This document shows positions 49,245 to 59,102 of a stretch of 64,000 nt of DNA, piece by piece; within the stretch, counting starts at the first letter, position 1, and each line of letters opens with the position of its first letter. Origin of the DNA: an uncultured Ruminococcus sp. (lineage in GTDB: Bacteria; Bacillota; Clostridia; Oscillospirales; Acutalibacteraceae); assembly GCA_902776375.1 (NCBI GenBank), contig CACYPV010000003.1, positions 57,417 through 121,416 on the forward strand, in the 5' to 3' direction. Below the pieces are notes generated by a model. The model did no database searches. It was given only the letters and a program-made list of their open reading frames with translations, and was not told the DNA's origin. The position numbers and the translations under genes were made by a program.

Positions 49245-51089
49245 TTAAATAAATACTGCTATTATATGCGATACAACAGCGCAGATTATGATACCGCTTA
49301 TCGTCGGTATAGCCATTGCGAGCACCGTGTGTTTAATGCTGCCTGTTTCCTTTTTAATCGTCAGGCAGGTGGTCGAGCAGGGAAAGTGCAGCACTGTCAT
49401 TATTATCATGCAGACAGCGGTCGTAACAGTCCAGCCGTTTGCGGTGAACAACGCGTACAGTTGTTCATATCCGCTGTAATCGCACATAGTTCCGCTTGCC
49501 ATGTACGACATCATTATTATCGGTATGACTGTTTCGTTGGCGGGAAAGCCCAAAATGAACGCCATTACAATAACGCCGTCCAGCCCGATAAATTTGCCGA
49601 ACGGGTCGAGAAAGTCGGTGCAGTGTTCTAAAACGGAAGTGTTGCCGATATACACGTTCGCGCAAAGCCATATCACCGCGCCCGCGGGAGTCGCGACTAT
49701 TGCAGCCCTGCCGAGGACGAACAGCGTTCTGTCAAGAAACGAGCGGCAAACGGTTTTTATGATCTGCGGCTTGCGGTAGGGAGGGAGCTCCAACACAAAG
49801 CCGGAGGGAGCTCCCTTTACAATCGTCATACTCAACAGCTTTGAAGCCAGCAGCGTGAGTAACACGCACATAACTATGATGAACACTAGCAGCAAAGTGA
49901 CTTTTACCGACGCAATTATGCCGCTTGATACGCCTGCAAAATACATCATCAGAATCGCTATAAGTATAGGCAGCCTGCCGTTGCAGGGCATAAAGTTGTT
50001 GGTCAGCACAGCGATAAGGCGCTCGCGCTTTGTTTCGATAATGCGGCAGCCGGTCACCCCGCAGGCATTGCAGCCTATACCCATCATCATGCACAGGCTC
50101 TGCTTGCCGTGAGCGCCGCTTTTTGCGAAAAATCGGTCAAGGTTGAAGGCAATCCGCGGCAAATATCCGGCGTCCTCAATAAGCGAAAACAAGGGGAAGA
50201 AGATCGCCATAGGCGGCAGCATGACCGACACTACCCAGCTCAGCGTTGTGTATACTCCGTCAATCAGTATGCCCGAGATAAAATGCGGAAGTTTGATAAA
50301 TCCGCAAAACCGGCTCAAATATGTTTTAATCGCTTCAAAGAGCGAGCTCAGCCACTCGCTCGGATAATTTGCGCCCACAGCCGTCAGCCAAAACAGCGCG
50401 GCGCACAGCAACAGCATTATGGGTATGCCCGTCGCCTTTGAGGTCAGCAGTTTGTCGAGCTTTTCCGTGCGGCGCCTGACTTTGTTTATTCCGGACTGCG
50501 ACACGCAGGTTGTAAATATCTTGTCGGCTACGGTATTATCATCGGATATTGGGTCGTATTCGCGGATCAGCGCAGTCTTTTGGCAGGTGATGTTTCCGGT
50601 GCATACATCCATACAGGCTGCTTTAAGCTCCCGCAAGCCCTGCTTTTTGACAGCGGAGCACTTTACAACAGGCGCGCCGAGCATTGCCGATAGCAGTTTA
50701 TCGTCGACGCTTATCCCGCTGCGGCGGGCTTCGTCGCAAAGGTTAAGGCAGATCACGGCTCTTTCGTACATAGACAGCACCTGCACGGCAAAGCGCAGAT
50801 TGCGCCTGAGCGCGCCGGAATCAAGCACCAACACGACGCAGTCGTAGTTATTATTAAGCAGGCAGTCGCGCGTGATAGTTTCTTCCTCGGAAAAGGCAGA
50901 CAGGGAATAGGCGCCGGGCAGGTCTGTGACGGTAAACTCGTTTTGCATATATTTAAAGCTTCCTTCACAGCGTTCGACCGTCTTTCCCGTCCAGTTGCCG
51001 GTGTGTTGTTTAAGCCCGGTCAGCGCGTTAAATACGGTGCTTTTGCCGACATTCGGATTGCCCGCCAGCGCTATCGTGTATCTACTCAT
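49245..51089 (-). CDS. feoB: Ferrous iron transporter FeoB
   Basis: GTPase-coupled membrane transporter for Fe(II). The cytosolic G domain has G1 GNPNVGKST (11-19), G3 DLPGAYSL and G4 NLCD, followed by a GDI-like helical region and a membrane domain of about eight or more segments with two Gate repeats (family cysteines in MGIGCNACGVTGC). At 614 residues it is at the short end of the family. It is encoded opposite to its neighbours and overlaps feoA by 8 bases. Confidence 0.96.
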   Translation of the reverse strand: MSRYTIALAGNPNVGKSTVFNALTGLKQHTGNWTGKTVERCEGSFKYMQNEFTVTDLPGAYSLSAFSEEETITRDCLLNNNYDCVVLVLDSGALRRNLRFAVQVLSMYERAVICLNLCDEARRSGISVDDKLLSAMLGAPVVKCSAVKKQGLRELKAACMDVCTGNITCQKTALIREYDPISDDNTVADKIFTTCVSQSGINKVRRRTEKLDKLLTSKATGIPIMLLLCAALFWLTAVGANYPSEWLSSLFEAIKTYLSRFCGFIKLPHFISGILIDGVYTTLSWVVSVMLPPMAIFFPLFSLIEDAGYLPRIAFNLDRFFAKSGAHGKQSLCMMMGIGCNACGVTGCRIIETKRERLIAVLTNNFMPCNGRLPILIAILMMYFAGVSSGIIASVKVTLLLVFIIVMCVLLTLLASKLLSMTIVKGAPSGFVLELPPYRKPQIIKTVCRSFLDRTLFVLGRAAIVATPAGAVIWLCANVYIGNTSVLEHCTDFLDPFGKFIGLDGVIVMAFILGFPANETVIPIIMMSYMASGTMCDYSGYEQLYALFTANGWTVTTAVCMIIMTVLHFPCSTTCLTIKKETGSIKHTVLAMAIPTISGIIICAVVSHIIAVFI

Positions 51090-51381: not shown

Positions 51382-51410
51382 TTGTTTTTTTCGGCGCTCT
51401 GTGATAGAAT
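51382..51410 (+). promoter_or_regulatory. Extended -10 promoter for the EamA gene
   Basis: TTGTTT at 51382-51387 and TAGAAT at 51405-51410 with a 17-base spacer and TG two bases before the -10. It lies 30 bases upstream of the EamA start and rules out the longer reading frame that begins at 51401. Confidence 0.8.
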
Positions 51411-51439
51411 GTAGTGGACTAAAAAAAGGAGGGATGAGC

Positions 51440-52381
51440 ATGGAGAAATCAAATAATATCCGCAGCAGCGTTTACCTGTCGCTGACCGCCGTTATTTGGG
51501 GCGTCGCCTTTGTCTTTCAGTCGATGGGCAACGACAGCATGGAGCCGTTTTCCTTTACCGCCTCGCGTTATTTTCTGGGATTTTTGTTTCTTGTCCCTAT
51601 CCTTATCATAAAGTATCATCATCCGCGTTTTCTAGCCGATAATGACGAGATACCGCTAAAAAAAATACCGAAAAAACTGACCATTATAGGCGGCGTGCTG
51701 TGCGGCTTGGCGCTGGGCATAGCGACTATGTTTCAGCAGTATGGCGTAAAGTACACTACTGTGGGAAAGGCGGGCTTTATTACTACACTGTATATCATTC
51801 TGACTCCCATTTTCGGGCTGTTTTTACGCCGCAGGTGTCACTTTACTGTGTGGATAGGCGCGACAGCCGCACTGTTCGGCATGTATCTGCTATGTGTAAA
51901 GGACGGGTTTTGTGTTGAATTCGGCGATATGCTCGTGTTTGTCTGCGCCGTATTCTACACCTTTCACATAATGATAATCGATCATTTCGCGCCTAAAACG
52001 AACGGCGTGCTACTCTCGTGTTTACAATTCTTTGTCAGCTCGGTTTTGTGCGGTATATTGGCATTTATCTTTGAATCGCCGTCGCTCACTCAGCTTCAGG
52101 ACGGCTTGATACCTGTGCTGTACACGGGGATAATGTCGAGCAGCGTGGCGTACACCATGCAAATACTCGGGCAGCGCAACTTCAACCCGACCATAGCCGC
52201 AATGATCATGAGCTTTGAGTCGGTCATTTCGGCTATAGCCGGATATTTCGCGTATCAATGGGGCTTTTTGACAGTTGAGCAAAGCCTGAGCGCTTTGCAG
52301 ATAATCGGCTGCGTTATAATGTTTGCGGCGGTAATTTTCGTTCAGCTCCCATTCGACAAATTAAAACGACGAACAGATTGA
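51440..52381 (+). CDS. EamA/DMT-superfamily transporter
   Basis: Ten-helix membrane transporter of the drug/metabolite superfamily with two EamA repeats (about 15-150 and 160-300). The start is ATG 51440 (MEKSNNIRSSVYLS), six bases after AGGAGGG at 51427-51433. The first helix contains AVIWGVAFVFQSMG, typical of the family, and ESVISAIAGYFAYQWG marks the second repeat. The substrate is unknown; relatives export amino acids or metabolites. 313 residues. Its end overlaps the promoter of the B12-regulated operon. Confidence 0.88.
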   Translation: MEKSNNIRSSVYLSLTAVIWGVAFVFQSMGNDSMEPFSFTASRYFLGFLFLVPILIIKYHHPRFLADNDEIPLKKIPKKLTIIGGVLCGLALGIATMFQQYGVKYTTVGKAGFITTLYIILTPIFGLFLRRRCHFTVWIGATAALFGMYLLCVKDGFCVEFGDMLVFVCAVFYTFHIMIIDHFAPKTNGVLLSCLQFFVSSVLCGILAFIFESPSLTQLQDGLIPVLYTGIMSSSVAYTMQILGQRNFNPTIAAMIMSFESVISAIAGYFAYQWGFLTVEQSLSALQIIGCVIMFAAVIFVQLPFDKLKRRTD

Positions 52382-52406
52382 CGAATCCGCCGCTTTGTGA
52401 TATTAT
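52378..52406 (+). promoter_or_regulatory. Promoter of the cobalamin-regulated operon
   Basis: TTGACG at 52378-52383, overlapping the EamA stop codon, and TATTAT at 52401-52406, 17-base spacer, with TG at 52398-52399. Transcription would begin near 52413, about 40 bases ahead of the riboswitch core. Confidence 0.82.
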
Positions 52407-52439
52407 AAATAAAACATAATAAAATACAGCTTGCGCGTT

Positions 52440-52560
52440 CTGTTCTTCGGAACGGGTAATAGGGAATGCGGTCAGAATCCGCAGCAACTTTCATTACCGT
52501 GTGCTGTCTTTGAACAGCGAGTCGGGTTACTTCCGCGCAGGCTTGGATCTGTATCCTTGG
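52440..52560 (+). promoter_or_regulatory. Cobalamin (B12) riboswitch
   Basis: Aptamer that binds adenosyl- or other cobalamin. Seen in order: GGTAAT (52455-52460) pairing with ATTACC (52493-52498); conserved AGGGAA at 52461-52466; hairpin TGCGG/CCGCA (52467-52471 with 52479-52483) with the GGTCAGAATCC loop region; hairpin GCTGT/ACAGC (52503-52507 with 52514-52518); and a B12-box-like GAGTCGGGTTACTTCCGC at 52519-52536. The order and spacing match cobalamin riboswitches, although several core positions differ from the commonest consensus. It precedes a secreted DUF4430 gene by about 100 bases, which fits B12 control of uptake. Confidence 0.86.
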
Positions 52561-52570
52561 ATAAGAAGGA

Positions 52571-52650
52571 GCACAGCCGAAAAACGCCGCATTTTTCACG
52601 ACTTGCGGTTTGTTCTGTTGTGCTTTTCTTTATAGAAAAGCATTTTTTAT
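52571..52650 (+). terminator. Riboswitch expression platform with terminator hairpin
   Basis: GCTTTTCT (52622-52629) pairs with AGAAAAGC (52634-52641) followed by ATTTTTTATT, an AT-rich intrinsic terminator 24 bases before the first start codon. Upstream, GCACA (52571-52575) can pair with TGTGC (52619-52623) enclosing a CCGCA/TGCGG stem (52587-52591 with 52604-52608); this larger structure shares bases with the terminator and is a candidate alternative fold. The exact switching is inferred. Confidence 0.7.
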
Positions 52651-52664
52651 TTGGAGGACTATTT

Positions 52665-53663
52665 ATGAAAAAGCTATTATCTATCATTCTTGCAATGGCG
52701 CTGTTTGCATCGGCTTTCGGCACAATAAGTGTAAGCGCAGAGGAAAACGCCGACGCCGTTCACGTTGTTGTGAAAAACGGTACGTTCAATACAACTGACG
52801 GAGCACCTTGGCAGGGCGTGCTGCTCGATACGACCGTGACGCTCAACGATGAAGATTCATTGGAATCTGTCATTGAGCGCGCGATCACCGAAAACAGCTA
52901 TGAATTCACTGTATCGCAGTACGGCTACATTTCCTCAATAAACGGTCTTGCAGAGTACGCCGTAAACGGAAGCGGCGGCTGGATGGCGACTCTTAACAAC
53001 TGGTTCACAGCCGACGGAACAACCGCCTATACTGTTGCGAACGGCGGCTTGCAGGCGGGCGACGAGATCGTTATGATGTACACCTGCGCTTGGGGCGCTG
53101 ACGTAGGCAGCCTTTACGGAGATTTTACTACCACGCTTTCTGCAGATGAATTTGGATTCAGAGGTTCTTATATTTCAGAAGCGACAACGCAGGAGTTCTT
53201 CGTGCCTGATATCCATGAATACAATATTGAAATCAACTATCCCGAGGATACGATCACGTTTTTCGCGGTGCCGACAAACAAAAACTATCAGGCAAGAGTT
53301 TATAAAAATGAGTATCAGCCCGAAACCGACGGAGCGGATTATCGCGGCGGAAAGAACGTACCTGTTAAAGACGGGGATGTTATATATATCGGCGTAGGCA
53401 ATCCCGCGTGGCCCACTATGAACAGCTGGGCAGGCACAGCGGAAGAGACCGTGTATACCTTCCGTGTGAAATACAAAATGCTCACAGGCGACCTTAATTC
53501 AAACGGAGTTTTGGATATTGACGACGTAACTGTTTTACAGCGTTACTTAGCGGAATTCGTGGAGCTGACCGATGAACAGTTGAAAGCTGCTGACATGAAT
53601 TCAGACGGCAGCGCAGATATCAACGACGCTACAGAGATACAGCGCAAGCTTGCCGCAAATTGA
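52665..53663 (+). CDS. Secreted DUF4430 (transcobalamin beta-like) protein with dockerin
   Basis: Predicted exported B12-binding protein of 332 residues. ATG 52665 follows GGAGG at 52653-52657. A signal peptide (1-25, cleavage after SVSA) precedes a DUF4430 domain (about 28-165) with SGGWMATLNNWF and GDEIVMMYTCAWGADVG; this family is related to the C-terminal beta domain of intrinsic factor and transcobalamin. A beta-sandwich-like region (about 166-270) follows, then a type I dockerin (about 274-332) with two calcium loops, DLNSNGVLDIDD and DMNSDGSADIND. It is the first gene after the cobalamin riboswitch. Cobalamin binding is inferred from family and regulation, not shown. Confidence 0.85.
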   Translation: MKKLLSIILAMALFASAFGTISVSAEENADAVHVVVKNGTFNTTDGAPWQGVLLDTTVTLNDEDSLESVIERAITENSYEFTVSQYGYISSINGLAEYAVNGSGGWMATLNNWFTADGTTAYTVANGGLQAGDEIVMMYTCAWGADVGSLYGDFTTTLSADEFGFRGSYISEATTQEFFVPDIHEYNIEINYPEDTITFFAVPTNKNYQARVYKNEYQPETDGADYRGGKNVPVKDGDVIYIGVGNPAWPTMNSWAGTAEETVYTFRVKYKMLTGDLNSNGVLDIDDVTVLQRYLAEFVELTDEQLKAADMNSDGSADINDATEIQRKLAAN

Positions 53664-53690
53664 TTTGATTGTTTATAAGGGGCGAAGGGT

Positions 53691-54776
53691 GTGTCAAAGC
53701 TTAACAGGATCATAATTACCGCATTGCTCATAATATCGCTGCTGAGCGGCACACTTTCCGCTTCGGCGCTATCAATCGAGCAGGAACAAAAGCTATGCGA
53801 TACGGGCGAGTATTTGAAGAATAATATAACGCCGCAGGTGGGCTCTATCGGCGGCGAGTGGGTCGTTATCGGTCTTTCGCGCAGCGGAATGTTCAGCGAA
53901 GCGCAAAAGCAGGCGTATTGCGATGCGGTCAAAGCTTACGCAGCCTCAAAGGGCACAAACCGCCTGCACAGCAGGAAATCAAGCGATAATTCGCGCGTTA
54001 TCCTCGCGCTGTCCGCTGTCGGAAAAGACCCGGGGAGCATTGCCGGGTACGACCTCACCGAACCGCTCGCAGATTTTGATTTTGTCAAAACGCAGGGGAT
54101 AAACGGCGTTATCTGGGCTCTAATCGCCTTGGATTCCTGCAATTATTATCTGCAAAATGACTGCCGCGATCAAATGCTCGGCGAGCTTTTAAGCGCCCAA
54201 CACATCGACGGAAGCTGGGGGCTGGACGAAAATGCAGACCCCGATGTTACCGGAATGGCTTTGCAGGCGCTTGCTCCTTATCGCAAGTATGACACCAATA
54301 TCCAAAATGCTGTTGAAAAGGCGCTTTTATGGCTCGATTCTTTATCGTTTGATCTTCTCAGCCCAGAGAGCTGCGCGCAGCTTATTGTTGCGTATACAAC
54401 TCTCGGTATTGCCCCTAACACCGGTCTGATCGACAGCATGATGCGTTACTCCGTCCCGAACGGGTTCGCGCACACATTAAACGGCGAATACAATCAAATG
54501 GCAACAGAGCAGGCTTATTACGCGCTTGCGGCGTGCCGCCGCTTTGAAAACGGAGAAAACGCGCTTTATGATATGAGCGACGTTGCCGACTACACCGTTC
54601 TTGATTTGGACGGCGACGCGCAAGAGAGCATCAACGACGCAACGTATATCCAGCGCTATTTGGCTGAATTTGAGGTCAGCTTTACAACGCCGATGAAACG
54701 CACGGCGGATCTGAATAAAAACGGCAAGGTCGATATCGGCGACGTAACGCTGTATCAGCAGTATCTTGCTCGGTAA
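53691..54776 (+). CDS. Secreted alpha/alpha-barrel (intrinsic-factor alpha-like) protein with dockerin
   Basis: Exported 361-residue protein starting at GTG 53691 with AAGGGG upstream. Signal peptide 1-26 (cleavage near SASA). Residues about 30-285 are a helical barrel of the terpenoid-cyclase/prenyltransferase-repeat type, with repeats such as IDGSWGLDENADPDVTGMAL and NQMATEQAYYALAACRRF; the alpha domain of intrinsic factor and transcobalamin has this fold. No DDxD-type cyclase site is evident, so binding seems likelier than catalysis. A dockerin follows (about 300-361): DLDGDAQESIND is an irregular first calcium loop, DLNKNGKVDIGD a normal second. It sits between two DUF4430 genes in the B12-regulated operon. 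Confidence 0.82.
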   Translation: MSKLNRIIITALLIISLLSGTLSASALSIEQEQKLCDTGEYLKNNITPQVGSIGGEWVVIGLSRSGMFSEAQKQAYCDAVKAYAASKGTNRLHSRKSSDNSRVILALSAVGKDPGSIAGYDLTEPLADFDFVKTQGINGVIWALIALDSCNYYLQNDCRDQMLGELLSAQHIDGSWGLDENADPDVTGMALQALAPYRKYDTNIQNAVEKALLWLDSLSFDLLSPESCAQLIVAYTTLGIAPNTGLIDSMMRYSVPNGFAHTLNGEYNQMATEQAYYALAACRRFENGENALYDMSDVADYTVLDLDGDAQESINDATYIQRYLAEFEVSFTTPMKRTADLNKNGKVDIGDVTLYQQYLAR

Positions 54777-54785
54777 GGATCGTTT

Positions 54786-55634
54786 ATGATTAAGTTTTTG
54801 AACAAGTACAAATGGGTGATTACCGGCGTCATTTTGGCGGCGGTATTGCTCGTTATTGCCTTTATTAGCGGAGGAAATGTCGAGGAAGCAAAAAAGCAGG
54901 CAGAAGTAACGACAGCTGCGGCAACATCCGACAGCGCCGATACAACAGCTTTGACGCATAACAAAATTGCGGAGGAAGCAACACAAAACAGCACTGCCCC
55001 AACTGAAGCCGCTTCAACTGTAGAAACGACGTCGCTAAATGCGACCGAAAGCCTTACCGCAACGTCCGCCGTTCATACTGCGCAGACCACTACTTCTGCG
55101 CAAAGCTCCGCCGCTGTTGAAAAGCCGACAGAAAAGACTTCGGCTCCTGCCGCACCTGTACCCGTGACAAAACCTCAGGAGCAAAAGCCGACCGAAGAAA
55201 AACCGACCGTAAGCGCAAAAAAGCGCTGCACTATATCAATATCCTGCGCAACGCTGCTGAATAATATAGACAAGCTCAAATTAGATGACCGCGAGCTTGT
55301 ACCGGATGACGGTTGGATATTAAAGCCGACGACTGTATTTATCAACAGCAACGATACAGTTTTTGACGTGCTGAAACGGGTGTGCAAAAATAAAAAAATA
55401 CATATGGAATACAGCAATAACCCCGTGTATAATTCAGCATATATCGAGGGTATCGGCAATCTGTATGAGTTTTCCGCAGGCTCAAATTCCGGCTGGATGT
55501 ACAGGGTGAACGGATGGTTCCCAAATTACGGCTGTTCGCAATATTCGCTTAAAGACGGCGATACTATAGAGTGGATGTACACCTGCAACCTCGGTTATGA
55601 TATAGGCGGCAGCAACGCGCGGGGGAATGATTGA
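54786..55634 (+). CDS. Membrane-anchored DUF4430 protein with Thr/Ser/Pro stalk
   Basis: A 282-residue surface protein. One N-terminal transmembrane anchor (WVITGVILAAVLLVIAFI, about 10-27) with no clear cleavage site is followed by a long low-complexity stalk rich in Thr, Ser, Ala and Glu, then Pro/Lys-rich (about 30-146), and a C-terminal DUF4430 domain (about 147-282) with NSGWMYRVNGWF and GDTIEWMYTCNLGYDIGG. This closely parallels the domain of the first gene in the operon. The layout suggests a receptor held above the membrane to pass ligand to the ECF transporter encoded directly downstream; that role is inferred. Confidence 0.83.
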   Translation: MIKFLNKYKWVITGVILAAVLLVIAFISGGNVEEAKKQAEVTTAAATSDSADTTALTHNKIAEEATQNSTAPTEAASTVETTSLNATESLTATSAVHTAQTTTSAQSSAAVEKPTEKTSAPAAPVPVTKPQEQKPTEEKPTVSAKKRCTISISCATLLNNIDKLKLDDRELVPDDGWILKPTTVFINSNDTVFDVLKRVCKNKKIHMEYSNNPVYNSAYIEGIGNLYEFSAGSNSGWMYRVNGWFPNYGCSQYSLKDGDTIEWMYTCNLGYDIGGSNARGND

Positions 55635-56520
55635 TATGAAGGACGCTTTTTCAAAAATGCACCCCGTAACAAATCTGATTTTCTTCGCGGCTGTTATAGC
55701 TTTTTCAATGTTTTTGATGCATCCCGTGTGCCTAATGCTGACGCTTATCTGCGCCGTATTATACGCGGTGTACCTGAGCGGGAAGAAGGCTGTGCTGTTC
55801 GGACTCAGATTCTTACTGCCGACCGCGCTGTTTTTGATAATCATCAATCCGCTGCTGAATCACAGGGGAGTTACTATAATCGAGTATCTGCCGTGGGACA
55901 ATCCGCTCACGCTGGAATCGATCATTTACGGCTTTGCGGCGGCTATGGTCATCTGTTCGGCGGCGATGTGGTTCCATTCGCTCAACCGCGTTATGACCTC
56001 GGACAAGCTGATTTTTTTATTCGGAAGGATAGCTCCGGCGCTCGGCATGGTGCTGTCAATGGCGCTGCGCTTTATCCCGCGCTTTGCCGAACAATTCAGG
56101 CAGACAAGGCTTGCGCAAAAGCAATTCTCGGCTGAAAAAACCTCGCTAAAGGGGCGCGTAAAGTCAGCGGCTGCGGTATTTTCGACCGTTATAAGCAGCT
56201 CTATGGAAAACGCGATCGATACCTCCGACTCGATGAAAAGCAGGGGCTACGGCTTAAAGGGGAGAACCTCATACAAGCGTTTCCGCTTTACCCGCGATGA
56301 CGCTTTAGCGGTCGCTGTCATGCTCGCGGATATCGCCGCACTGATCACAATGCTTGTTTTCGGCAAACTGAAATTCAGATATTTTCCGTCCATCAAGGGC
56401 AATATTTGGGATATCTACGCGGTTTTGTTTTACATTTTATACTTGATTCTTTTGTTGACGCCGATACTGATAAGCGGAAAGGAGGGGTACAAATGGAAGC
56501 GGTCAAAGTCAAAAATCTGA
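55627..56520 (+). CDS. ECF transporter transmembrane subunit (EcfT)
   Basis: Membrane coupling subunit of an energy-coupling factor vitamin importer, linking the ATPases to the substrate-binding S component. The 297 residues contain N-terminal membrane helices, a cytoplasmic helical region with the coupling motif SMKSRGYG (family consensus S/A-R-G) near residue 203, and further helices at the end. The start ATG 55627 overlaps the preceding stop by 8 bases; ATG 55636 is an alternative. The gene overlaps the ATPase/S gene by 28 bases. B12 as cargo is inferred from the riboswitch and DUF4430 neighbours. Confidence 0.85.
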   Translation: MIDMKDAFSKMHPVTNLIFFAAVIAFSMFLMHPVCLMLTLICAVLYAVYLSGKKAVLFGLRFLLPTALFLIIINPLLNHRGVTIIEYLPWDNPLTLESIIYGFAAAMVICSAAMWFHSLNRVMTSDKLIFLFGRIAPALGMVLSMALRFIPRFAEQFRQTRLAQKQFSAEKTSLKGRVKSAAAVFSTVISSSMENAIDTSDSMKSRGYGLKGRTSYKRFRFTRDDALAVAVMLADIAALITMLVFGKLKFRYFPSIKGNIWDIYAVLFYILYLILLLTPILISGKEGYKWKRSKSKI

Positions 56521-59102
56521 GCTTCCGGTATCCCGAAACGGGTGTTGACGTGCTTCGTGACGTCAGCTTTACGGTGCAGCGCGGCGAATTCGTCACACTC
56601 TGCGGACTTTCCGGCAGCGGCAAAAGCACCCTGTTGCGTCAGCTAAAGCCCGCGCTCGCTCCGCACGGTGTCAGGCAAGGCGAAATATATATAAACGGCA
56701 ATGAGCTATCAACGCTTTCGCCACGCGAACAAACACAGCTTATCGGCTTTGTTCAGCAGTCGCCCGACAATCAAATCGTGACCGACAAGGGGTGGCACGA
56801 GCTGTCCTTCGGACTGGAAAGCTTGGGTCACAGCGAAAACGTTATACGGCGCAGAGTTGCCGAGACGGCAACGTATTTCGGTCTGCAGCAGGTCTTTGAC
56901 AGCGAGGTCTCAACGCTGTCGGGCGGTCAGAAACAGCTTTTGAATCTGGCTTCGGTAATGGTGATGCAGCCCGAGCTGCTTTTGCTTGACGAACCGACCT
57001 CGCAGCTTGACCCGATCGCCGCTGCCGAGTTTTTGGCTTGCCTGCAAAGGATAAACCGCGAGATGGGCACGACTGTCATCATCACAGAGCACAGGCTTGA
57101 AGATATTTTGCCGCTCAGCGACAGGGTTTTAGTGTTGGAAAACGGGGAATTGATCTGTGACGATTTACCGAAAAACACCGGCAAATGCCTAAAAAAGGCT
57201 AAAAGCGACTGCTTATTGTCAATGCCGGCGCCTATGCGCATTTGGGACGCGGTGTCAATAGGGGAGACCGATTGCCCCGTAACGGTGGCTGAGGGCAGAG
57301 CGTGGCTGAACGATTACGCTTCTGCTCACAAAATGCATGAGCTCGATAAAGAAGTTATCCCCGCGTGCGGAGAAACGGCAATAAAGCTTAAAAACACATA
57401 TTTTCGGTATGAAAAAAGCTCCCCGGACGTTATTCAAAACCTCAGTTTATCAATACAACGAAGCGAGTTTCTTTGTCTTTTGGGCGGAAACGGAACGGGG
57501 AAAAGCACGCTGCTAAACCTGATAAACGGAACGCTGAAGCCTTATCGCGGAAAGATTATTTCTAATAAAGAATTATGTTTGTTGTTGCCGCAGAATCCTC
57601 AGACTATGCTTAACGGCAAAACCGTAAGGGAATCCTTGTGCTCGGTATTTGACGGAAAGCAGCTTGAAGAGACCGAAAAGGAGCAAAGGCTCAAAAACGC
57701 CATTGGCATATGCGGTATCGGCGATTTGCTCAGCAGACATCCGTTCGACCTTTCAGGAGGCGAAATGCAGAAAGTCGCCCTTGCAAAGCTGCTGCTGCTA
57801 AAGCCGACAGTCCTGTTGCTTGACGAGCCCACAAAGGGGCTTGACTCTGCGTTCAAGGCGGTGTTTGCCCGCATAATCCGCAAGCTCACTTCCGACGGCT
57901 GCGCCGTGGTCATGGTGAGCCATGATGTTGAATTCTGCGCCAAATACGCGCACCGCTGCGTTATGCTGTTCAATGGCGAGATCGTCGCCGAGGGAACGCC
58001 GCGCGAATTTTTCAGCGGCAACGGGTTTTATGCCACCGCCGCCTCGCGTATCTCGCGCGGAGTAATAGACGGAGCGGTAACCGCAGAGGACGTTATATAT
58101 TCCTGCACGGGCGAAAATAGGGAAGAGGACATTGAATTCTTTGACGATCCGCCCGAGCTTACCGATTATCAACCTGTAAAAACCGAAAGGCAGAAGCTTC
58201 CCAAATACAAAACATTTCTGGGCTTAGGCGGCTCGTTATTGCTGGTTTTCGGCATTCTGGAAAACCTTGATTATCTGCCTTTTATTCCTGCGCACAGCCT
58301 GCCGTTTTGGCTGAATTTCTGTTTTATAGCCATTCCGGTCATATTGATAACGGCGGCGTTCGGCAGGCGCTCGGCAAAATCCATCGACGCTTTTTTTGAA
58401 AAAAAGAAGCTTGCGAAGCGCACTATAGCCGCGGCAATTATGATACTGCTGCTTATCCCCGCGACGATTTATATCGGCAACGTTTACCTTTACGATCAAA
58501 AATATCTTTTTATATCGCTGTTGGTGCTGTTTGAGTGCATGCTGCCGTTTTTTCTGGTGTTTGAGGGCAGAAAACCGCAGGCGCGCGAGCTTGTGCTTAT
58601 AGCGGTTTTGTGCGCGCTGACAGTCGCCGGACGCACGGCGTTTGCCGCTCTTCCGCAGATAAAGCCCGTGATCGCTCTGGTTATCATCAGCGGCGCGGCT
58701 CTCGGCGGAGAAACGGGATTCGTAGTCGGTGCAACGTCAATGCTTGTTTCTAACGTTTATTTCGGGCAGGGTGCTTGGACCCCGTGGCAGATGTTCGCGG
58801 CTGGCATTATCGGCTTTATATCGGGAGTTTTGTTTCAAAAGGGCTTTTTGGAGCGGAACCGCACGGTCATTTGCGTGTACGGGTTCTTGATCACTGTGAT
58901 TATCTACGGAGGGATAATGAACTTTTCTTCGTGGGTGCTTTCACATTCCACCGCAAATTTCGAAACTATTCTGGCTTTTTACGTACAGGGCTTACCGTAC
59001 GATATCATCCACGGCTTCTCTACGGCGATGTTCTTATTCTTCCTGGCAGAACCTATGCTTGAAAAGCTCGGCAGAGTAAAAACAAAATACGGGTTAATTT
59101 AA
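56493..59102 (+). CDS. Fused ECF ATPases (A and A') plus S component, probable cobalamin importer
   Basis: An 869-residue fusion. ATG 56493 follows GGAGGGG. ABC domain 1 (about 1-250): Walker A GLSGSGKST (38-46), signature LSGGQKQ near 142, Walker B LLLLDEPTS. ABC domain 2 (about 290-530): Walker A GGNGTGKST near 331, LSGGEMQK near 418, VLLLDEPTKG. After a linker, residues about 570-869 form a hydrophobic region with many membrane segments, including RELVLIAVLCALTVAGRTAF and a GGETGFVVGATSMLVSN segment typical of ECF S components. With EcfT this makes a complete dedicated transporter in two polypeptides. Cobalamin as substrate rests on the riboswitch and neighbours. Confidence 0.85.
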   Translation: MEAVKVKNLSFRYPETGVDVLRDVSFTVQRGEFVTLCGLSGSGKSTLLRQLKPALAPHGVRQGEIYINGNELSTLSPREQTQLIGFVQQSPDNQIVTDKGWHELSFGLESLGHSENVIRRRVAETATYFGLQQVFDSEVSTLSGGQKQLLNLASVMVMQPELLLLDEPTSQLDPIAAAEFLACLQRINREMGTTVIITEHRLEDILPLSDRVLVLENGELICDDLPKNTGKCLKKAKSDCLLSMPAPMRIWDAVSIGETDCPVTVAEGRAWLNDYASAHKMHELDKEVIPACGETAIKLKNTYFRYEKSSPDVIQNLSLSIQRSEFLCLLGGNGTGKSTLLNLINGTLKPYRGKIISNKELCLLLPQNPQTMLNGKTVRESLCSVFDGKQLEETEKEQRLKNAIGICGIGDLLSRHPFDLSGGEMQKVALAKLLLLKPTVLLLDEPTKGLDSAFKAVFARIIRKLTSDGCAVVMVSHDVEFCAKYAHRCVMLFNGEIVAEGTPREFFSGNGFYATAASRISRGVIDGAVTAEDVIYSCTGENREEDIEFFDDPPELTDYQPVKTERQKLPKYKTFLGLGGSLLLVFGILENLDYLPFIPAHSLPFWLNFCFIAIPVILITAAFGRRSAKSIDAFFEKKKLAKRTIAAAIMILLLIPATIYIGNVYLYDQKYLFISLLVLFECMLPFFLVFEGRKPQARELVLIAVLCALTVAGRTAFAALPQIKPVIALVIISGAALGGETGFVVGATSMLVSNVYFGQGAWTPWQMFAAGIIGFISGVLFQKGFLERNRTVICVYGFLITVIIYGGIMNFSSWVLSHSTANFETILAFYVQGLPYDIIHGFSTAMFLFFLAEPMLEKLGRVKTKYGLI

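Follow-up and report, generated by a model that had tools for sequence, protein, structure and literature searches.

A cobalamin-riboswitch operon of an uncultured Ruminococcus sp. encoding a predicted two-part transcobalamin-like capture system and an ECF importer

How might a bacterium that is probably unable to make vitamin B12 capture it outside the cell and bring it in? This question is raised by an operon in the genome of an uncultured Ruminococcus sp. (GenBank assembly GCA_902776375.1, contig CACYPV010000003.1, positions 57,417 to 121,416 of the forward strand; this whole stretch of 64,000 nucleotides is called the window below). Behind a cobalamin riboswitch stand five co-directional genes, which encode a DUF4430-dockerin protein (P1), a toroid-dockerin protein (P2), a membrane-anchored DUF4430 protein (P3), EcfT (P4) and an A-A'-S fusion (P5) of two ATPases of an energy-coupling factor (ECF) transporter with an S-component. 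A sequence-only reading of this DNA had proposed a riboswitch followed by five tightly spaced genes of one direction, and the Rfam score, the gene coordinates and the Pfam matches bear this layout out.

The explanation that we consider probable as a whole is a B12-repressed capture and import operon with a split transcobalamin-like trap, docked at the cell surface, and a receptor relay to the importer. Cobalamin would repress the operon in its host, probably a B12-auxotrophic relative of Ruminococcus bearing cohesins and dockerins. P1, which contributes the beta domain (DUF4430), and P2, which contributes the toroid, would be separately secreted halves of the trap, carried by their dockerins to a cell-surface scaffold. 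There the two would close together on a corrinoid, presumably B12 for P1, P2 and P3 alike, as is presumed for the fused DUF4430-toroid-dockerin protein of Ruminococcus bromii acting by itself. The ligand would then be accepted by the stalked, membrane-anchored receptor P3 and transferred to the CbrT-like S domain, with the EcfT-A-A' module as the source of power.

The riboswitch leader, the importer and its substrate

The aptamer, of the short class, is located at 52418-52552 on the plus strand, like all other features of the operon. It scores 39.6 bits with RF00174 against a gathering score of 31.5, passing the family threshold, and 83.2 bits with R1, a model of our own. Within the window no other Rfam match reaches the gathering threshold, and in the whole genome (2.64 Mb) RF00174 has no second match at E <= 0.001, the genome-wide search having used stricter filters, with which weak matches can be lost. 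Because the match is alone in a genome of this size, the odds of its landing by chance within a few hundred bases of the operon are, by our own estimate, about 1 in 10,000. The model R1 was trained on 18 rows, one being the window and the others coming from the order survey described below; it has few base pairs (10), leans on sequence and serves for placing matches, and the RF00174 genome searches provide an independent check on it.

A promoter had also been proposed, and the consensus scan, which is its only basis, places a promoter-like TTGACG-17-TATTAT, with TG ahead of the second hexamer, at 52378-52406. A terminator-like hairpin followed by a T run is found at 52620-52643, ahead of the Shine-Dalgarno (SD) sequence of the P1 gene, and an alternative long pairing is predicted. 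The layout suits an off switch that terminates transcription, ligand control being predicted from the hairpin and the alternative fold. Such matches to a consensus are no proof, and similar sites occur elsewhere in the scanned region, which contains 18 promoter-like sites versus 7.8 in shuffles and 15 terminator-like sites versus 9.7. The end of an EamA-family transporter gene (51401-52381), not obviously part of the system, overlaps the promoter-like site. On the minus strand, 49245-51089 encodes what appears by eye to be a FeoB-like ferrous iron transporter with a GTPase and a membrane domain.

From P1 to P5 the genes are separated by gaps of 27 and 9 nt and then overlap by 8 and 28 nt. P4 (55627-56520) is an EcfT of the CbiQ family, and P5 (56493-59102) contains two ABC domains and an ECF S-component according to Pfam, so that the A, A', T and S parts of an ECF transporter are all encoded together. 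At E <= 0.001 the S domain (about 58443-59102) matches one PDB chain only, 6FNP_A (residues 7-177 of 182, E 8.6e-10). This structure is the ECF-CbrT of Lactobacillus delbrueckii, which has been shown to transport B12 (PMC5997447). By homology the S domain of P5 is of the CbrT type, and binding and transport of cobalamin are predicted for it.

The PF02310 search found one B12-binding protein over the family cut-off in the genome. It is MetH-like, with S-methyl_trans, Pterin_bind and both B12-binding domains within the 628 residues read. CbiC, CobS and FecCD (the BtuC-type permease) had no match in the genome, the completeness of which is 98.9%; among 14 control genomes, matches were found in 7, 11 and 13, respectively. 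Since CbiC and CobS are without a match at this completeness, the host is likely a B12 auxotroph. The presence of the MetH-like protein and the CbrT-like S domain, together with the absence of CbiC, CobS and BtuC-type matches, indicates that the operon is likely the B12 importer; among the families searched, which leave other ECF S-components aside, it is the sole candidate for this role. We regard its function as a B12 uptake system, as it had been read from the sequence, as very probable.

The candidate capture proteins and their pairing

P1 (52665-53663) is a putative secreted protein with a signal peptide recognised by eye. It comprises a DUF4430 domain (about 52806-53105; 25.0 bits versus a Pfam cut-off of 23.8), a cadherin-like beta domain (about 53181-53396) that is below the Pfam cut-off and was not part of the sequence-only reading, and a dockerin (about 53487-53651; Dockerin_1). 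P2 (53691-54776), also with a signal peptide by eye, consists of an alpha/alpha toroid (53769-54560) and a C-terminal dockerin (about 54603-54767). Pfam reports Dockerin_1 alone in P2; the toroid escapes it and is recognised by the families of its homologues and the structure model. P3 (54786-55634) starts with a transmembrane (TM) segment and a stalk rich in Thr, Ala and Pro, both recognised by eye, followed by DUF4430 (55239-55604; 80 bits). PF14478 is thus over the cut-off in both P1 and P3. For P1 and P5, ATG start codons were picked by eye from SD-like sequences; the list of open reading frames (ORFs) begins both further upstream, at TTG.

A profile of 33 DUF4430 domains, compared with the PDB, found the beta domain of transcobalamin-2 as its top match (5no0, E 8e-5) and only match below 0.001, followed by further transcobalamins (0.0013) and haptocorrin (4kki, E 0.0052). 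For the toroid the evidence comes from the fold. The AlphaFold2 model of P2 (pLDDT 96.4, pTM 0.93, 55 sequences) resembles alpha/alpha toroids in a Foldseek search, with bovine transcobalamin 2bb6 at rank 24 (TMq 0.67), and matches to the Prenyltrans or SQHop families were found in 29 of 35 aligned homologues of P2. For the model of the fused R. bromii protein (pLDDT 95.8, pTM 0.79, 72 sequences), Foldseek ranks human transcobalamin first (7qbe_C, E 3.4e-5) and lists intrinsic factor in 14th place. When P1, P2 and P3 were compared with the PDB as single sequences, the yield was dockerins and weak matches, one weak match to a cyclase, and one match of E 0.78. The domains had been read as relatives of those of transcobalamin; the beta domain of P1 and P3 is related to it by profile, and P2 by a fold that it shares with terpene cyclases, a fold that fits transcobalamin without singling it out.

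The relatives were examined in an order survey of 79 neighbourhoods from 75 genomes (L033-L111) and in a named scan, from which the best 80 of 539 confirmed loci were taken (L112-L191). The two share two records (L034/L151 and L033/L176), so their counts are not additive. The toroid was found in 76 of 245 genomes of the order, the window's own genome included, and, by profile search, in 63 of 299 genomes of a phylum sample. The earlier reading had suggested surveying genomes for co-occurrence of riboswitch, DUF4430 and barrel genes. DUF4430 is on the toroid's strand at 74/79 order-survey and 76/80 named loci. The 1.5 kb upstream of the cluster contain a riboswitch at 51 of the 74 assessable order-survey loci (RF00174 or R1) and at least 35 of the 65 assessable named loci, the latter value, from R1 only, being a lower bound. 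DUF4430, ecfT, ABC and S genes occur together at 53/79 and 58/80 loci, many loci in these gene counts being cut by contig ends. RF00174 at E <= 0.001 is present in 55 of the 76 order genomes with the toroid (48 over the gathering score) and, in two further genome sets, in 41/49 (29) and 28/30 (27).

The exact arrangement of the window, with DUF4430-dockerin, toroid-dockerin, DUF4430, ecfT and A-A'-S, recurs at 17 of the 80 named loci. A fused arrangement, in which one DUF4430-toroid-dockerin gene precedes DUF4430, ecfT and A-A'-S, is found at eight, three of them from R. bromii. Neither occurs among the 79 order-survey loci. The R1 riboswitch is upstream of 23 of these 25 split or fused loci; at the other two, L142 and L182, a contig end truncates the first gene.

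Several other arrangements were observed. Two same-strand cobalamin riboswitch matches precede one toroid operon at L040, L042, L045 and L049. The record L034/L151 and locus L149 have the order toroid, DUF4430, A-A', S, ecfT, so that ecfT no longer stands before the ATPases. Long ORFs with repeated DUF4430-toroid units (D-T-D-T), candidate multi-copy B12 binders, are found at L158, L144, L145 and L167.

The toroid and the beta domain, which are on separate genes in the window, form a single chain in relatives. The R. bromii chain (L132) is composed of DUF4430, cadherin-like domain, toroid and dockerin, that is, of P1 without its dockerin followed by P2; its identity is 39% to the DUF4430-cadherin region of P1 and 46% to the toroid of P2. 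In 25 cases a toroid-dockerin gene has no DUF4430 fused to it. Five of these genes are at a contig end, and directly upstream of 18 of the 20 assessable ones there is a DUF4430-dockerin gene; the exceptions are L173 and L130, in the latter of which DUF4430 and dockerin are in separate frames. The earlier proposal that two secreted halves are paired gains from this: as their counterparts are fused into one chain in R. bromii and its kin, the fusions support P1 and P2 acting as one unit.

The DUF4430 tree (FastTree; 250 domains, 114 columns, no formal test, some near-identical records) was read by the three nearest neighbours of each domain. Receptor-position domains have 275 of 288 neighbours in the receptor position. 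The 162 neighbours of first-position domains include 108 first-position, 32 DUF4430-toroid-fused and three receptor-position domains, and the 129 neighbours of fused domains include 76 fused, 37 first-position and no receptor-position ones. The 15 domains nearest to that of P1 are 13 first-position and two fused (L136 and L161), while those nearest to P3 are all receptor-position. It seems that capture and receptor DUF4430 domains are separate lineages and that P3 is a separate receptor. In the toroid tree, fused and split forms are interspersed within a dockerin clade of 33 tips (support 0.976), a pattern suggestive of repeated switching between the two forms.

Points against the trap and alternative explanations

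The following results weigh against the proposed trap. The top Foldseek match of the P2 model is the terpene cyclase MstE (E 4.7e-4), and transcobalamin first appears at rank 8 (E 1.8e-3); toroid profiles compared with the PDB reach cyclases and no transcobalamin; and PF01122 (Cobalamin_bind) is absent from P2 and found in one of 35 homologues, at E 0.048. For the fused model the fit to transcobalamin is modest (TMq 0.26-0.37, TMt 0.33-0.48), the alignments span 309-337 gapped columns in a protein of 535 residues, and macroglobulin-type and cyclase matches are nearly equal in E-value (CD109 at rank 2, 3.6e-5). The R. bromii domain is outside the 15 nearest tree neighbours of the P1 DUF4430. 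No riboswitch lies within 1.5 kb at 23/74 order-survey and 30/65 named loci, the latter searched with the short-class model only, although some such loci carry one further upstream. Finally, in other genomes the toroid is fused to a different set of DUF4430 domains, directly before ecfT (24 domains, designated TD_ecf).

Due to these last fusions, P2 could pair with P3 instead, within the same B12 system, P1 being an independent first binder that does not close with P2. The 72 tree neighbours of the TD_ecf domains are 60 TD_ecf domains and 12 others, ten of them receptor-position, and the genes of P2 and P3 are neighbours. However, the fusion seen in the nearest relatives that have one joins the counterparts of P1 and P2 and leaves P3 separate, and we hold the P2-P3 pairing to be unlikely. 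A two-protein B12 trap formed by P1 and P2 has, in our judgement, somewhat better than an even chance. DxDD is the class II cyclase motif, and its fourth position is non-acidic in 35/35 aligned toroid rows. Together with the fusion of toroid and DUF4430 in a single ORF at 43/79 order-survey and 35/80 named loci, this led us to reject a plain terpene cyclase. A secreted cyclase-like or carbohydrate-related toroid, merely co-regulated with a B12 importer, would agree with the profile and fold matches of P2 to cyclases and with dockerins being best known on glycan-cleaving enzymes (PMC6118326); the same fusions and non-acidic residue, and the signal peptide seen by eye, speak against this explanation, which seems very improbable.

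It is also conceivable that the same machinery imports another corrinoid or tetrapyrrole, such as cobinamide, another cobamide or heme. L. sakei reportedly has an ECF system for heme, which is said to be like the present operon. A heme ECF system is described in S. lugdunensis (PMC7299338), and ECF-CbrT is reported to take up cobinamide as well (PMC5997447). Nevertheless, the cobalamin riboswitch, the CbrT-like S domain and the MetH-like protein in the genome favour B12, and there is no CobS match in the genome to finish cobinamide. A different ligand is therefore improbable, more so than the pairing of P2 with P3, and heme as first-choice ligand was rejected on the riboswitch, the S domain and the MetH-like protein.

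Docking and comparison with known systems

The genome contains 59 dockerin matches at E <= 0.001, those of P1 and P2 included, and 12 cohesin matches at E <= 0.1, seven of them over the cut-off. This set, on contigs C12, C34, C35, C11 and C6 (L192-L199), constitutes a cellulosome-type system. In a comparison by eye with 54 of the 57 other dockerins, those of P1 and P2 carry the prevailing (V/A)T..Q pattern, at what we take to be the recognition positions; the first dockerin repeat of P2 is degenerate. P1 and P2 may accordingly be co-docked on one scaffold. More tentatively, and with somewhat less than an even chance in our estimate, the operon may encode a split "intrinsic factor" on a cohesin scaffold, where dockerins would unite the beta and alpha halves beside other docked proteins, and the halves would close on B12 and feed the stalked receptor. 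If so, a surface machine of the cellulosome type would also serve to trap a vitamin; in any case, docking modules of the cellulosome type are here placed on likely vitamin-capture proteins.

In BtuB/BtuFCD and in BtuG/BtuH of Bacteroides, B12 is captured outside and then imported, as is proposed here. To our knowledge, no part of the present operon is homologous to these systems; FecCD/BtuC has no match in the genome, and BtuB, BtuG and BtuH were outside the search. The sequence-only reading had called an extracellular relay of this kind in Gram-positive bacteria largely undescribed, which is an overstatement: transcobalamin-like/toroid B12 scavengers beside CbiO/CbiQ are already known in Gram-positives as a prediction. 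Burroughs et al. (2007; PMC1796856) describe secreted SLBB (transcobalamin-type) domains fused to toroids in low-GC Gram-positives, in operons with CbiO and CbiQ and in hosts usually without key enzymes of B12 synthesis, and propose that B12 is bound jointly and scavenged, that paralogous extracellular SLBB proteins may form complexes, and that animals acquired their B12 carriers from Gram-positive bacteria.

The window has in common with those systems the transcobalamin-type beta-grasp domain, the toroid, secretion, CbiO/CbiQ-like genes, a host probably lacking B12 synthesis and paralogous extracellular SLBB proteins in one operon. In the sections of Burroughs et al. that were covered, two-domain fusions are described, whereas in the window the domains are apart on two docked proteins; the words riboswitch, dockerin, cohesin, cellulosome, CbrT and split do not occur in its main text. 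Among the matches listed in the open-licence literature, subscription papers being mostly outside, none describes the split docked form or experiments with it; the titles and abstract beginnings of the DUF4430 literature contain nothing on bacterial B12 uptake, and the covered parts of PMC3766115, PMC2667541, PMC8123684, PMC4350170 and PMC6118326 contain no account of the present system. New features are the association of the operon with a riboswitch in relatives as well, the identification of the S domain as CbrT-like, the division of DUF4430 into a capture and a receptor lineage, and the distribution of the two halves over two dockerin-bearing proteins, the genome having 59 dockerin matches and seven cohesins over the cut-off.

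The animal carriers intrinsic factor, transcobalamin and haptocorrin resemble P1 and P2 in combining an alpha/alpha toroid with a beta domain of the same superfamilies. They are one chain in the order toroid-beta, whereas the window has two chains and the R. bromii fusion the order beta-toroid; P2 also differs from them in having no PF01122 match. Fedosov and colleagues reportedly found that separate fragments of human intrinsic factor reassemble around cobalamin, and this lends plausibility to a trap in two pieces. The ECF-CbrT of L. delbrueckii (6FNP, PMC5997447) shares with the present importer the homologous S-component and the A, A', T module; in the window A, A' and S are fused into a single chain, and candidate binders outside the cell as well as a receptor are encoded in the operon too.

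The closest counterpart is the B12-riboswitch operon of R. bromii (L132, L133 and L137), which is similar in its gene order from the receptor onward, its riboswitch and its dockerin, and differs in having one DUF4430-cadherin-like-toroid-dockerin protein in place of P1 and P2. R. bromii is reported to be unable to make B12, and its B12-dependent methionine genes fall in co-culture (PMC6231298). For numerous gut genomes, identifying the systems that transport B12 is described as an open problem (PMC6593275). The operon that the window has in common with R. bromii offers a concrete, testable system, with relatives of the carriers, a B12 switch and a CbrT-like importer, which also bears on the proposed Gram-positive origin of the animal B12 carriers (PMC1796856).

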